Shown piece by piece: positions 23,078-43,477 of a stretch of 64,000 nt of DNA. The stretch comes from Blastococcus sp. DSM 46786. GTDB lineage: Bacteria; Actinomycetota; Actinomycetes; Mycobacteriales; Geodermatophilaceae. The stretch is taken from contig NZ_FOAO01000024.1 in NCBI RefSeq assembly GCF_900109665.1, positions 21,712-85,711 on the forward strand. The letters are read 5' to 3'. Both the position numbers and the translations under genes were made by a program. The stretch's first letter is position 1. Every line of letters begins with the position of its first letter. Under the pieces are notes generated by a model, which did no database searches, had not been told where the DNA came from, and saw only the letters and a list, made by a program, of their open reading frames with translations.

Positions 23078-23737
23078 CTACTGGCGCTCCGGCGGGTGCT
23101 CGGCCCGCCAGCGGTCGAACGACTCCAGGAAGGAGGCGGCCATCCGGTTCTCGGTGCGGACCTCCTCGCGGTCCCGGTCGTCGCGCATCCGGTCGGCCAG
23201 CGCCATGGTGTTGAACTTGATGGCGCGGAAGTACGGGATGAAGGAGCCGGGCGTGAACGCCCGCTTCGACGGCCGGGGCTCGACGCCCTCCGGGGCCCAC
23301 GGCCCGGGCTCGGGGAGCGGGGGCAGGCCCAGCCCCTCCAGCGCGGTGAGGAAGGGCTCGTCGTCCGTCCGGTCGGTGAAGTCGCGGGAAAGTTCCCGGA
23401 ACACCTCCCGGCCGTCGGGGGCGACCGCGATGACGACCGGCCGGAAGATCGAGGCGTCCTCGTCCCAGGCGTCCAGCGGCTTCGCCAGCCGGGAGCCGTC
23501 GGGATCGCTCACCCAGCGGTAGGGCACGTGCCAGGTGCGGTCGAACGCGAGCTGCACCTCGGGCGGGTCGACCGAGGCGAGCACGACCTCGGTGCCGGCG
23601 GCGGCGAGACGGGGCAGAGACGGGGCCAGGCGGACCGCCTGGGCGCAGCAGTAGGGCTACCAGTCGCCCCGCAGGCCGATCAGGAGCAGGGCCGCGCGGT
23701 CGTCGGACCGCAGCGCGAGCAGGTCGGCGGTGTCCAT
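23078..23737 (-). CDS. candidate selenoprotein: thioredoxin-fold/peroxiredoxin-like protein with in-frame UAG (selenocysteine) at codon 27
   Basis: Read through the UAG at 23657-23659, the frame gives 219 residues from an ATG at 23737. The text before the UAG ends GLRGDW and after it begins PYCCAQAVRLAPSLPRL, so UAG replaces the first Cys of the W-C-P-Y-C redox motif of peroxiredoxin/thioredoxin-like proteins, giving U-x-x-C. The remainder is intact (beta strand TEVVLASVDPP, then WHVPYRWVSDPDG, IAVAPDG). The reading frame has no other lesion. A hairpin downstream resembles a SECIS. Codon 27 lies too early for the rest to fold as a thioredoxin domain alone; an internal GTG at 23584 would lose the active site. 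The terminal stop is also UAG. A -10 element TACCGT ends six bases before the ATG (leaderless). Alternative: a pseudogene. Confidence 0.75.
23626..23642 (-). promoter_or_regulatory. putative bacterial SECIS element downstream of the UAG codon
   Basis: On the mRNA the stem CCAGGC, loop GGUCC, stem GCCUGG forms a perfect 6-bp hairpin. The loop GGU lies 21-23 bases after the UAG. In E. coli fdhF the corresponding GGU of the SelB-binding loop is, by my count of the remembered sequence, 19-21 bases after the UGA. The apical G-U needed by SelB is present. The same bases also encode residues 32-37 of the protein, as bacterial SECIS elements do. Confidence 0.65.
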
Positions 23738-23827: not shown

Positions 23828-25930
23828 ATGAGCGAGCGCCGGGTCCGCATCGGCATCGACACCGGCGGGACGTTCACCGACGTCGTCGCGGTGGACGAGG
23901 AGACCGGGCGGACGACCACCACCAAGACGCCGTCCACGCCCGCCGATCCGGCCGAGGGTTTCCTCACCGGCGTCCGCAAGGTGCTGGACCTGATGGGCCT
24001 GACCGGCGAGGCGGTGACCGCCGTCAGCCACGGGACGACGGTGGCCACCAACCAGCTGCTCGAGGGCAAGCTGGACCGCCTGGGCTTCATCACCACCGAG
24101 GGCTACGAGTCGGTGCTCGAGATCGCCCGCCAGTCGGTGCCCGACGGCTACGGCAACAGCTACTTCTGGGTCAAGCCGCCGCGGATCGTCCCGGCCGACC
24201 TGGTCCACACCGTGCGCGGGCGGCTGGACCACACCGGCGCGGAGGTGCGCCCCTTCGACGAGGACGACGCCCGCGCCGCCGCCCGCTTCTTCCGCGACGC
24301 CGGCATCACCACCGTCGGCGTCTGCTTCCTGCACGCCTACGCCGACGACGCGCACGAGCGCCGGATGCTCGAGGTGATCCGCGAGGAGCACCCCGACGCC
24401 GTGGTGAGCATCAGCTCCGAGGTGCTGCGCGAGTACCGGGAGTACGAGCGCTCGGTGACGACGCTGGTCGACGCCGCCGTGAAGCCGAAGGTCGGCGCGT
24501 ACGTCACCAACATCCGCACCCGCCTCGACGAGATCGCGCCCGGCGTGCCGTTCTACGTCATGAAGAGCAACGGCGGCGTGCTCTCGGCCGCCGAGGTGGT
24601 GCACCAGCCGATCACCACGATGCTCTCCGGCCCGGCCGCCGGGGCGCTGGGCGCGGCGCTGATCGCGGGCACCGCCGGGTTCGACCGGGTGCTCACCTGC
24701 GACGGCGGCGGCACCTCCACCGACGTCACGGTGGTCATCGACGGGGAGCCCGCGCTCACCACCGAGGGTTCGGTGGGCGACTACCCGTCCAAGATCCCGA
24801 TGATCGACGTCGTCACCGTGGGCGCGGGCGGCGGCTCCATCGCCTGGCTCTCGCCGGAGGGCACGCTCAAGGTGGGCCCGAAGTCGGCCGGTGCCGACCC
24901 CGGCCCGATGTGCTACCGGAACGGCGGCGACCAGCCGACCGTCACCGACGCCCACGTCGTCCTCGGCCGGATCCCCCCGCACCTGCTGGGCGGCGAGATC
25001 CCGCTGTCGGTCGATGCCGCGCGGGACGGGCTGCAGCAGCTCGGCGCGAAGCTGGACATGGACCTCGAGCGGGCGGCCACCGGGATCCTGGAGATCTCCG
25101 CGTGGAACCAGGCCAACGCGCTGCGCCAGGTGACCGTGGCCAAGGGCCTGGACGTCCGGGACTTCACGCTGACCACCTTCGGCGGCTCGGGCTCGCTGCT
25201 GGCCTGCCGGCTCATGGACATCCTCGGCCTGCCCCGCACCCTGGTGCCGCCGAACCCGGGCAACGTCAGCGCCTTCGGCCTGCTCACCGTCGACGTCCGC
25301 AACGACTACGTGCAGACCGTGATCAGCCGGCACGCCGACCTGGACCTGGCCCGGGTGCGCGCCGTCTACGCCGACCTCGAGGCCCAGGCGCAGGTCGCCC
25401 TGGACGGCGAGGGCTTCGGCCGCGACCAGCAGCGCATGCAGCGGACGGCGGACCTGCGCTACGTCGGCCAGGCGTTCGAGGTGCGGGTGCCGGTCGCCGA
25501 CGGCGAGCTCGACGCCGAGGCCACCGAGGCGGTGGCGCGGGAGTTCCACGCCGCGCACCGCCAGCTGTACGGCTACGACTTCGCCGACGACCCGCGCCAG
25601 GCCGTGGAGTGGGTGAACCTGCGGGTCAGCGGGATCGGCCCGATCCGGCGTCCCGACCTCGTCGAGCTGGCGCCGGCCGACGGCGGGACGGACCGGGCCG
25701 TCACGGGCTCCCGTCCCGTCTTCTTCGACGCTGTGCAGCCGTCGTCGTCCTCCGGAGGCGACTGGGTGGAGACGCCGACCTACGACCGCCTGCGCCTGGC
25801 CCCCGGCGACGTCGTCAGCGGCCCGGCGATCGTCGAGGAGTTCGGCTCCACCGTCCCGGTGCACCCCGGCTTCGCCGCCACCGTGGACGCCTACGGAAAC
25901 CTGCTGCTCACGAAGGAGACCGGCCGATGA
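23828..25930 (+). CDS. hyuA: hydantoinase A/5-oxoprolinase family, HyuA
   Basis: A 700-residue ATP-dependent subunit. The N-terminal phosphate-binding loop IGIDTGGTFTDVV (about residues 8-20) and the later SGPAAGALGAALIAG and CDGGGTSTDVTVV segments are the ASKHA-type nucleotide site. Relatives include N-methylhydantoinase, 5-oxoprolinase and acetone/acetophenone carboxylase, so ATP-driven opening or carboxylation of a small cyclic or ketone substrate is expected but not resolved. A TAAGGT -10 element 8 bases before the ATG suggests a nearly leaderless transcript. Coupled to hyuB by an ATGA overlap. Divergent from the selenoprotein candidate. Confidence 0.88.
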   Translation: MSERRVRIGIDTGGTFTDVVAVDEETGRTTTTKTPSTPADPAEGFLTGVRKVLDLMGLTGEAVTAVSHGTTVATNQLLEGKLDRLGFITTEGYESVLEIARQSVPDGYGNSYFWVKPPRIVPADLVHTVRGRLDHTGAEVRPFDEDDARAAARFFRDAGITTVGVCFLHAYADDAHERRMLEVIREEHPDAVVSISSEVLREYREYERSVTTLVDAAVKPKVGAYVTNIRTRLDEIAPGVPFYVMKSNGGVLSAAEVVHQPITTMLSGPAAGALGAALIAGTAGFDRVLTCDGGGTSTDVTVVIDGEPALTTEGSVGDYPSKIPMIDVVTVGAGGGSIAWLSPEGTLKVGPKSAGADPGPMCYRNGGDQPTVTDAHVVLGRIPPHLLGGEIPLSVDAARDGLQQLGAKLDMDLERAATGILEISAWNQANALRQVTVAKGLDVRDFTLTTFGGSGSLLACRLMDILGLPRTLVPPNPGNVSAFGLLTVDVRNDYVQTVISRHADLDLARVRAVYADLEAQAQVALDGEGFGRDQQRMQRTADLRYVGQAFEVRVPVADGELDAEATEAVAREFHAAHRQLYGYDFADDPRQAVEWVNLRVSGIGPIRRPDLVELAPADGGTDRAVTGSRPVFFDAVQPSSSSGGDWVETPTYDRLRLAPGDVVSGPAIVEEFGSTVPVHPGFAATVDAYGNLLLTKETGR

Positions 25931-27801
25931 GCCTCACCGACGCCACGACCGCCGACCCGGTGCTCGTCGAGATCGTCGCCGGCACGCTGGCCGCGATCGA
26001 GAAGGAGGTCGAGACCTCCATCGGCCGCACCTCCCGCTCCCCGATGATCCGCGACGCGCACGACTTCCGGGCCGGCATCCACGACCGGCTGCTGCGCAAG
26101 CTCACCGGCCGCTCGTACTCCGCGCTGGTGCAGCCGGTCGTGCGGGACTACCCGCTGGACTCGATGAACCCCGGCGACGTCTACTTCCACAACGACGTCT
26201 ACCTCTCCGAGGGCGGGATCGGCCACCTGCCCGACCTCTGCGTCACCGTGCCGGTCTTCGCGCACGTGAACGGCGCCGAGAGGGTGGTCGCCTTCATCCA
26301 GGCGTTCGGCCACCACGACGACATCGGCGGCGCCGTGCCGGGCTCGATGCCGTCGGCGGCGACCAGCGTGTACGAGGAGGGCCTGATGGTCCCCCCGATC
26401 AAGCTGTGGGACCGCGGCGTGCCCAACGAGAGCGCGCTGAAGATCATGACCCGCAACTCGCGGATGCCCGACTCGCTCGCGGCCGACCTCGATGCGGAGT
26501 GCTCGGCCTGCCTGGCGGGCGCCCGCCGGCTCGGGGAGCTGTTCGAGCGGTACGGCGTGCAGGCCGTGGAGGCCGCCTTCGACGCGATCCTCGACAGCTC
26601 CACCGAGGTGTACCGGCGGGAGATCCTGTCGCAGATCCCCGACGGCACCTACGTCTGGGAGGACTACGCCGAGCACGACGGCGTCGAGGAGCCGCAGCTG
26701 CACCGGCAGCGGATCACGCTGACCATGGACTCCTCGGAGGAGACGCCGCTGGTCATCGACTTCACCGGCACCGGCCCGCAGGCCAAGGGACCGATCAACC
26801 ACTGCGGCGACTACGCCGACGGCAACTTCCTCAAGAAGTGGCTGGCGCCGATCCTGCGCAACCTGGCCGAGACGCCGGAGCGCATGGCGCAGCTCGACGT
26901 CAACGAGGGCGTCGTCCCGCTGATCGAGATGCGCTTCCCGGAGAAGGGCACGCTGCTCACCCCGATCTTCCCGGCGCCGACCAACGCCCGGACGTTCGTC
27001 ATCCTGCGGCTGCTCGGCGTGCTCGCCGGGGTGCTGGCGAAGGCCACCGGCGGCCGCATGCCCGCCGACCAGGAGACGATCCGATACACCGGCGTCTACG
27101 GCACGGACTTCGACGGCGAGCCGTACCTGATGCGCGAGGTGCTGGGCGGCGGCTCGGGCGGGCGCTACTACGCCGACGGCGAGGACACCATCCACGTCGT
27201 CCCCGACTCGCGGAACCTGCCGACGGAGTTCACCGAGGGCCGCTTCCCGCTGCGGGTCGAGCGGCTGGGGCTGGCGATGGACTCCGGCGGGCCGGGGCGC
27301 TACCGCGGCGGCTGCGGCTACGAGAAGCACATCCGCGTGCTGCGCGACGCCCACTTCATGTCGATCGCCGACCGCTCGATCCTCGCCTGCTGGGGCGTCA
27401 AGGGCGGCAAGGCCGGGCGGCCGTTCCAGATCACCGTCGACCCGGGCGGCCCGGACGAGCACGACGTCGACGCGCTCGCCGACGCCGAGCCGCTGAAGGC
27501 CGGCACCGTGGTGCGCATTCGGACGACGGGCGGCGGCGGCTGGGGCGACCCGCTGGACCGGCCGGTCGACGAGGTGCTGCGCGACATCTCCTGGCGGAAG
27601 GTGTCGGTCGCCGGCGCCCGGGAGGACTACGGCGTCGTCGTCCTCGAGTCGGGTGAGGCCGACCTGGCCGCCACCGAGGAGCTGCGGGCCTCCCTGCGGG
27701 GCGCCCGCACCGGCGACGAGCCGTTCTTCGACCGCGGGCCCGGCTACGCCACCCTCTCCGGCGGTGCGGCGTTCAACGAGTTCGACGTCCTGCCGGGGTA
27801 G
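25927..27801 (+). CDS. hyuB: hydantoinase B/oxoprolinase family, HyuB
   Basis: A 624-residue partner of HyuA. Family stretches seen: RDAHDFRAGIHD, NPGDVYFHNDVYLSEGGIGHLPDL (which includes metal-type ligands), FGHHDDIGGAVPGSMP, and a C-terminal TTGGGGWGDPLDRP motif. In known systems HyuB forms the second half of an ATP-dependent hydantoinase or carboxylase. Length is slightly above the usual 520-600. Ends with a UAG stop followed by a strong hairpin terminator at 27831. The substrate is unresolved. Confidence 0.88.
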   Translation: MSLTDATTADPVLVEIVAGTLAAIEKEVETSIGRTSRSPMIRDAHDFRAGIHDRLLRKLTGRSYSALVQPVVRDYPLDSMNPGDVYFHNDVYLSEGGIGHLPDLCVTVPVFAHVNGAERVVAFIQAFGHHDDIGGAVPGSMPSAATSVYEEGLMVPPIKLWDRGVPNESALKIMTRNSRMPDSLAADLDAECSACLAGARRLGELFERYGVQAVEAAFDAILDSSTEVYRREILSQIPDGTYVWEDYAEHDGVEEPQLHRQRITLTMDSSEETPLVIDFTGTGPQAKGPINHCGDYADGNFLKKWLAPILRNLAETPERMAQLDVNEGVVPLIEMRFPEKGTLLTPIFPAPTNARTFVILRLLGVLAGVLAKATGGRMPADQETIRYTGVYGTDFDGEPYLMREVLGGGSGGRYYADGEDTIHVVPDSRNLPTEFTEGRFPLRVERLGLAMDSGGPGRYRGGCGYEKHIRVLRDAHFMSIADRSILACWGVKGGKAGRPFQITVDPGGPDEHDVDALADAEPLKAGTVVRIRTTGGGGWGDPLDRPVDEVLRDISWRKVSVAGAREDYGVVVLESGEADLAATEELRASLRGARTGDEPFFDRGPGYATLSGGAAFNEFDVLPG

Positions 27802-42673: not shown

Positions 42674-43477
42674 CTACTGCTCGGCCGAGCCCGGGGCGAT
42701 CATGGGCTTCTGGACCTTGCCGGCGACCGAGTCGGGCACGACCGCCGAGAGGCGGCCCATCAGCTTGCTGGTCACCGACCCGGCGAACACCGAGGTCTCG
42801 CCCTTCATCAGCCCCTCGAATCCCTGCCGGGCCACCAGCGCCGGGTCGTCCTTGCTGTCGCTGGCGCCCAGCTTGGTGTCGGTGAGTTCGCCGCGGTCGA
42901 AGAACTCGGTGTCGGTAGGGCCGGGCAGCAGCGCGGTGACGGTGACGCCGGTGCCGTCCAGCTCCTCGCGGATGCCCAGGGCGAGGAACTGCACGAACGC
43001 CTTGGTCGCGGAGTAGACCGCCTGGAACGGCGCGGGCGCCTGCGAGACCACCGAGGAGGTGAACAGGATCCGCCCCTCCCCCCGGCCCACCATGTCCTGC
43101 GCCACGCGCTTGGCCAGGTGCATCGTCGAGACGCAGTTCAGCTCGACCATGCCGATCTCCGCCTCGAGATCAGTCTCGACGAAGCGGCCGCCGACGCCGA
43201 CGCCGGCGTTGAGGGCCGCCGCGTCCAGCGGCCGGCCGGACCCGCGCACGGCCGCGACGACCTTCTCGACCTCCTCGCGCCGGGTGAGGTCGGCCCGGAC
43301 CGGCGATACGGCGGCGCCGCGCTGGCGCAGCTGCTGGGCCGCCGCGTCGAGCTCGGCGTCCTCGGCGACCACCACGAGGTCGAACCCGTGCTCGGCGAAC
43401 TGCTTGGCGAGCTCCAGCCCGATGCCGCTGGACGCACCGGTGACGAGGGCGAGGGGACGGGGCGTTGCGTCGGGCAC
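42674..43477 (-). CDS. SDR family oxidoreductase
   Basis: A 267-residue short-chain dehydrogenase: cofactor motif TGASSGIG at residues 14-21, NAGVG near 91, catalytic Ser in LFTSSVVSQ and YSATK near 158. The C-terminal part carries an extra segment with repeated Lys/Gly (GLMKGETSVFAGSVTSKLMG). Substrate unknown; this group is often annotated as a ketoreductase. Ends with UAG, another example of UAG acting as an ordinary stop. Confidence 0.87.
   Translation of the reverse strand: MPDATPRPLALVTGASSGIGLELAKQFAEHGFDLVVVAEDAELDAAAQQLRQRGAAVSPVRADLTRREEVEKVVAAVRGSGRPLDAAALNAGVGVGGRFVETDLEAEIGMVELNCVSTMHLAKRVAQDMVGRGEGRILFTSSVVSQAPAPFQAVYSATKAFVQFLALGIREELDGTGVTVTALLPGPTDTEFFDRGELTDTKLGASDSKDDPALVARQGFEGLMKGETSVFAGSVTSKLMGRLSAVVPDSVAGKVQKPMIAPGSAEQ

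Follow-up and report, generated by a model that had tools for sequence, protein, structure and literature searches.

UAG-programmed selenocysteine (Sec) was reportedly described in Geodermatophilus and Blastococcus by Mukai and colleagues in 2016 (Angew. Chem. 55:5337). The first-pass annotation of the DNA studied here had noted that this kind of recoding has been known in the family since then, and in this it was right, as the discovery is cited in a later survey (Santesmasses, Mariotti and Guigo 2017, PMC5330540). According to this survey, three Geodermatophilaceae genomes have a tRNASec with a CUA anticodon, the 2016 discovery is credited with the formate dehydrogenases and UGSC proteins of the Geodermatophilaceae, and a peroxiredoxin-like gene was added in 2017, namely the Sec-TAG AhpC gene of Blastococcus saxobsidens DD2.

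The window, by which we mean the whole stretch of 64,000 nucleotides of Blastococcus sp. DSM 46786 that was analysed, contains a gene that invites comparison with both. The Mukai system shares with the window's genome the UAG codon, the CUA anticodon, the bacterial family and the UGSC-type selenoproteins, but where PMC5330540 credits that system with formate dehydrogenases, the window's gene is instead peroxiredoxin-like. With the DD2 AhpC gene, as it is described in that survey, the window gene has in common the genus, the family, the UAG Sec codon, the tRNASec(CUA) and a SECIS after the codon. The genome that we take to be that of DD2 (G008) carries an orthologue with UAG that is 84% identical to the window gene, and there is no second match in G008; on this comparison the window gene is almost surely the orthologue of the AhpC Sec-UAG gene of B. 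saxobsidens DD2. The DD2 gene belongs to another species, and PMC5330540 names one genome for it, as against the 30 UAG orthologues reported here. A 2026 review (PMC13188914) treats peroxiredoxin-like selenoproteins that resemble the window protein in being of the AhpC/TSA type with Sec at the redox site; rows of its table give U-x-x-S (cd02970) and T-x-x-U (PF00578), whereas the window protein has UAG in a U-x-x-C motif. The text of that review contains neither the word Geodermatophil nor the word Blastococcus.

UAG-encoded Sec is thus not new as a kind, and an AhpC-like UAG gene has already been predicted in print; because of these reports the novelty of the window gene is lower than the first-pass annotation implied. 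The breadth of the distribution, the comparison of Cys, UGA and UAG forms and the evidence from synonymous sites were not found in the prior literature, of which our search covered few subscription journals.

The interrupted gene and its product

Three features of the window define the locus:

23078..23737, minus strand: predicted peroxiredoxin-like (AhpC/TSA) selenoprotein gene, 219 residues, with UAG at codon 27 probably read as Sec
23657..23659, minus strand: in-frame UAG, the predicted Sec codon at the first position of the U-P-Y-C redox motif, conserved in relatives
23078..23584, minus strand: the part likely to be called as the gene by standard annotation, with a GTG start, 168 aa

Translation of positions 23737-23078 (minus strand) yields one frame from M1 to Q219, the sole internal stop of which is the UAG at codon 27 (23659-23657) in the context G-D-W-UAG-P-Y-C-C; this agrees with the first-pass description of a frame intact except for the UAG at W-UAG-P-Y-C. 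The terminal stop at codon 220 (23080-23078) is also UAG. We think it very likely that the gene encodes a peroxiredoxin-like selenoprotein in which the single internal UAG is read as Sec by a dedicated tRNASec(CUA) under the direction of a hairpin. Upstream of the UAG (codons 5-26) the ratio pN/pS is 0.20; downstream it is 0.33 over codons +12..+90 and 0.43 from codon +91 to the end. Protein-level selection therefore acts on both sides of the UAG. A two-sided coding scan of the TAG codons of the window returned one further candidate, at 42674, which is without a redox motif and resembles an ordinary gene end. The UAG gene is adjoined by a pair of long ORFs (window 23830-27801, plus strand), which by their look are presumably subunits of the hydantoinase/oxoprolinase type.

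The first-pass suggestion of a peroxiredoxin/thioredoxin-like protein is borne out at the level of both profile and fold. The read-through product scores 41.9 bits against the Pfam family PF00578 (AhpC-TSA; cut-off 26), and its predicted structure, built on an alignment of 25 sequences, has a mean pLDDT of 94.2 and a pTM of 0.90; all 50 PDB matches listed are peroxiredoxins, for example AhpE 1xxu (TMt 0.74, TMq 0.52). Membership of PF00578 follows from the two together, a profile score above the gathering score and a peroxiredoxin fold. A search of NCBIfam with the window protein matched no family. In the predicted structure residue 27 directly precedes the helix at 28-46. The PF00578 profile alignment places the second Cys of the W-U-P-Y-C motif on the S-P-V-C cysteine of a solved peroxiredoxin, which we take to be the peroxidatic residue, and the Sec on the Ser. 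Compared with the peroxidatic T-x-x-C of PF00578, the W-U-P-Y-C site may be read as a thioredoxin-like U-x-x-C, and in the mature protein this U-x-x-C pair would form the redox centre where helix alpha-1 of a thioredoxin-type fold begins.

The first-pass annotation had also anticipated that standard gene calls would start past the UAG, and so they do: public homologues numbered 183, and for the 120 that were listed (117-193 aa) the alignment always begins after residue 27, and the W-x-P-Y-C motif is present in 0/120. Most bear the name 'hypothetical protein', that of DD2 is a 'protein of unknown function', and a few are named 'peroxiredoxin' or 'AhpC/TSA'. Taken at face value, this annotation of 120/120 listed homologues without the part up to the UAG, together with the availability of a GTG start at 23584, would agree with the UAG being an ordinary stop, with an upstream frame that encodes either nothing or a leader peptide and with a true protein start near 23584. 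We regard this as very improbable. The purifying selection on codons 5-26 (pN/pS 0.20) acts on the part that it would discard. A protein starting at 23584 finds no match in Pfam and misses three elements of the predicted fold, namely the first strand, helix alpha-1 and the redox pair. Where orthologues have a Cys codon the frame is uninterrupted, and where they have UGA the motif is the same. On the selenoprotein reading, the listed public homologues would be without their active site as annotation trims the protein after the stop codon.

Conservation of the UAG and of the hairpin that follows it

Orthologues were sought in 112 genomes of the family at E 0.001; 34 genomes matched, but four of the matches, being weak (E 1.6e-4 to 5.9e-4) and lacking a stop, were not counted as orthologues. 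The orthologues of the remaining 30/112 genomes, from five genera, have UAG at codon 27 in 30/30, and an orthologue with Cys at codon 27 was not seen in the 112 family genomes at this threshold. Twenty-eight of them, the window's own included, are full length with one internal TAG; in G104 and G028 an identical one-base deletion splits the gene shortly downstream of the TAG. The retention of TAG in 28/28 full-length orthologues, and in the two with the later 1-nt deletion, excludes chance, in line with the first-pass argument against a random nonsense mutation. The two deletion loci (L048 in G104, L049 in G028) are from different genera, and the deletion falls within a run of C at the hairpin's base, leaving the stem intact but breaking the frame; it may reflect decay, assembly error or frameshifting. 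In a second collection, close orthologues occur in named records from Blastococcus, Geodermatophilus and Modestobacter. No match was found in 78/112 family genomes at E 0.001, and four more have only weak ones; the UAG gene is therefore dispensable.

Shortly 3' of the UAG there is a putative recoding element:

23626..23642, minus strand: SECIS-like hairpin CCAGGCG-GUC-CGCCUGG, with a loop that begins 22 nt past the UAG

In 28/28 orthologues the stem has 7 bp and the loop contains GU, a combination that a median of 5.5% of synonymous shuffles attain (maximum 11%). For the 45 nt that follow the UAG, the native sequence folds no more stably than its synonymous shuffles (-15.4 versus -15.9 kcal/mol), and we have discarded folding energy as proof of a SECIS for this reason; with an energy like that of the shuffles and a stem in about 5% of them, the case for the hairpin rests on conservation and not on energy. 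Among the 28 UAG genes, 9/11 of the codons after the UAG are synonymously invariant, as compared to 22/83 of the invariant-residue codons elsewhere, and the share of the commonest codon differs between the 11 post-UAG codons and the rest (Mann-Whitney P 0.002). Consistent with this, pS is 0.10 in codons +1..+11 and 0.32-0.34 in the rest of the gene, an approximately threefold drop. By its conserved stem and the synonymous constraint the hairpin may be counted as a SECIS element, to which SelB is predicted to bind. The sequence GGUC occurs at about equal distance in 17/24 of the UGA genes from outside the family, and in 1/4 of the Cys genes tested.

The terminal stop of these genes provides an internal control. 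The orthologues divide evenly, with UAG in 14/28, among them the window gene, and UGA in 14/28. After the terminal UAG the GU-loop stem amounts to 0 bp in the window gene and to no more than 4 bp in 12/14, the exceptions being L040 (6 bp) and L035 (18 bp), the latter possibly a terminator. Most likely, then, one and the same gene uses UAG for Sec at codon 27 and for termination at codon 220. The presence of UAG at both codons, the terminal one without a GU-loop stem, fits SelB/SECIS-directed recoding and not a global reassignment, and the terminal UAG would presumably terminate via release factor 1.

Decoding machinery and the proposed codon switch

The window's genome (4.59 Mb in 47 contigs) has a single clear tRNASec, at G000:C18:67468-67559, which scores 67.7 bits against the Rfam cut-off of 47, has the anticodon CUA and lies directly upstream of selA; a second match above the cut-off, at 52.3 bits, is a tRNA-Ser(UGA). 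SelA (TIGR00474, 421 bits, cut-off 267.9), SelB (279 bits, cut-off 242) and SelD (390 bits, cut-off 125) are all present above their curated cut-offs, and the genes for SelB and SelD are on the tRNASec contig. The genome accordingly holds the tRNASec(CUA) and all three proteins that the first-pass annotation had named as partners of a UAG-encoded Sec. A CUA tRNASec is also present in 30/30 of the family genomes with the UAG gene. Following the known bacterial pathway, SerRS would charge tRNASec(CUA) with serine, SelA would turn the seryl-tRNA into selenocysteyl-tRNA with selenophosphate from SelD, and SelB would bring the product to the ribosome at UAG27 by binding the hairpin just downstream.

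Two further genes of this genome have a similar organization:

G000:C16:75516-75941 (L320): UGSC-family gene with UAG, followed by a GU-loop stem
G000:C14:189547-189954 (L321): UGSC-family gene with UAG, followed by a GU-loop stem

In both, the UAG is at U-G-S-C and an 8-bp GU-loop stem comes after it; the first scores 133 bits and the second 102.9 bits, which is below the family cut-off of 125. The UGSC rows listed across the Geodermatophilaceae have TAG or no stop, and none has an internal TGA. We infer that at least three genes of the window's genome use UAG for Sec. An AhpD/CMD-like gene without an internal stop (C16:76126) comes after the UGSC gene at C16:75516-75941. FdhA (TIGR01591) was considered as a further UAG gene and rejected: it is matched in 97/112 family genomes at E 1e-100, and among the matches listed there is no TAG inside. 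Its internal stops are TGA only, in G071, G073 and G074 of genus g7; G073 and G074 have a UCA tRNA, and G071 gave no tRNASec match. A UAG formate dehydrogenase is not claimed from the present data, though such reports in the family are cited in PMC5330540.

Homologues beyond the family were sought in 396 genomes of the phylum at E 1e-8, of which 39 matched, the window's own included. The first-pass annotation had pointed to homologues at this codon as informative, and the 29 other loci read, from other classes of the phylum, have UGA there in 24 and Cys in 5, within the motif R-G-D-W-x-P-Y-C (R-G-D-W-C-S-Y-C in L205). Thirteen further phylum matches have a TGA somewhere inside in six (one of them twice) and no stop in seven. 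A search for tRNASec in 30 of these outgroup genomes was positive in 26, with 27 genes and the anticodon UCA in 27/27; there was a match in 22/24 of the UGA genomes, the two without one being G613 and G840, and in 3/5 of the Cys genomes. In one genome of the phylum, a distance of about 9 kb separates a pair of tRNASec(UCA) genes (G526:C96:70099-70187 and 79295-79385).

Within the family there are 110 tRNASec genes in 108/112 genomes, 102 with CUA and 8 with UCA; in one genome (G036) a pair of CUA genes is split between two contigs. Of the eight UCA genes, seven belong to genera g5-g7, where tRNASec(UCA) has been kept in G066, G068, G069, G070, G072, G073 and G074, and the eighth is an extra gene of G058. 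As UAG goes with CUA in the family and UGA with UCA outside it, codon and anticodon change together. The tRNASec(UCA) genes of the sister genera are close to the CUA genes (L054, for example, is up to 93% identical), and genera g5-g7 probably represent the state before the codon switch. In an unrooted SelA tree of 29 family rows, in which the UCA genome G070 appears twice and the longer L088 was used instead of L054, one branch (100/100) splits CUA (25 rows) from UCA (4 rows from 3 genomes); no SelA match was found within the examined stretch near the 27 outgroup tRNA loci or near L052, L053, L056, L059, L068 and L074. The simplest account would be that UAG replaced UGA once within the family, and we infer this direction because the 26 outgroup genomes with a tRNASec all have UCA (27/27 genes).

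These comparisons also bear on whether the UAG could be read as some other residue, such as pyrrolysine or the amino acid of a suppressor tRNA. The ARAGORN label of the gene, 'tRNA-Pyl', would agree with such a reading, but it is owed to the CUA anticodon; Rfam calls the same gene tRNA-Sec at 67.7 bits, selA is its neighbour and selB and selD share its contig, the sister-genera tRNASec(UCA) are close relatives (L054, as above), and the homologous residue is Cys, or Sec by UGA with tRNASec(UCA), all of which make another residue highly unlikely. That the gene is a pseudogene or its UAG an assembly error is scarcely credible, for although a frameshift is found in 2/30 orthologues, the conservation of TAG in 30/30 genomes of five genera, with pS of about 0.33 outside the hairpin region, refutes it, short of an artefact common to all. 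The first-pass proposal that UAG encodes Sec is therefore supported by the tRNASec(CUA), by selA, selB and selD, by the hairpin and by the exchange of UAG, UGA and Cys at the codon.

A possible second Sec codon in Geodermatophilus marinus

The extra UCA gene of G058, identified as Geodermatophilus marinus by a protein with 100% identity across 72% of the query, is part of an unusual locus:

L081:1169-2157 (G058:C17): tRNASec(UCA) and a UGA-type AhpD/CMD-like gene, in a transposase-flanked island of foreign character

None of the other tRNASec compared shares more than 75% identity with this second tRNASec of G. marinus (81.8 bits, anticodon UCA). Some 0.3 kb separate it from the divergently oriented AhpD/CMD-like gene with C-F-Y-UGA, in which the UGA (L081:1870-1872) is at the U of C-x-x-U and is followed by a 7-bp GU-loop stem; the protein scores 28.2 bits with PF02627 (against 23) and 112.6 bits with TIGR01926 (against 81.8). 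The GC content of the island is 0.61, versus 0.72-0.77 in the remaining contig, and there are transposase genes on both sides. The AhpD/CMD-like protein has matches in 75/112 family genomes at E 1e-5, with an internal UGA in G058 only, and in 6/396 phylum genomes at E 1e-25, of which 6/6 have one UGA somewhere inside. No match to selA, selB or selD was found on the island contig at E 1e-10; G. marinus has a native CUA tRNASec locus with selA, selB and selD, plus a UAG-type UGSC gene.

We lean slightly towards the view that G. marinus decodes Sec by two stop codons at once, the island being a mobile Sec cassette that would bring its own tRNA and use the SelA, SelB and SelD of the host. A plasmid origin of the island found no support: the 10 plasmid matches listed to L081:1-8000 each cover no more than 15% of the query and fall at 6.8-8.0 kb, off the island, in a part where most of the named features are IS30-type transposases. 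No earlier report of a G. marinus with two Sec codons was found in the literature, in a search that was thin on subscription journals, and the tRNASec(UCA) and UGA-type gene beside a native CUA/UAG system are apparently new. The two-codon relative is a more novel lead than the window gene.

In summary, the UAG gene offers a clean natural record of a codon swap with the amino acid kept, in which one active-site codon is traceable through three states within a phylum, Cys, Sec(UGA) and Sec(UAG), and the tRNA anticodon changes in step. If the reading of G. marinus is true, a cell with a switched Sec codon can acquire foreign UGA selenoproteins when it imports the tRNA that fits them, and this organism would provide a direct test of how a cell separates two Sec codons and two termination signals.
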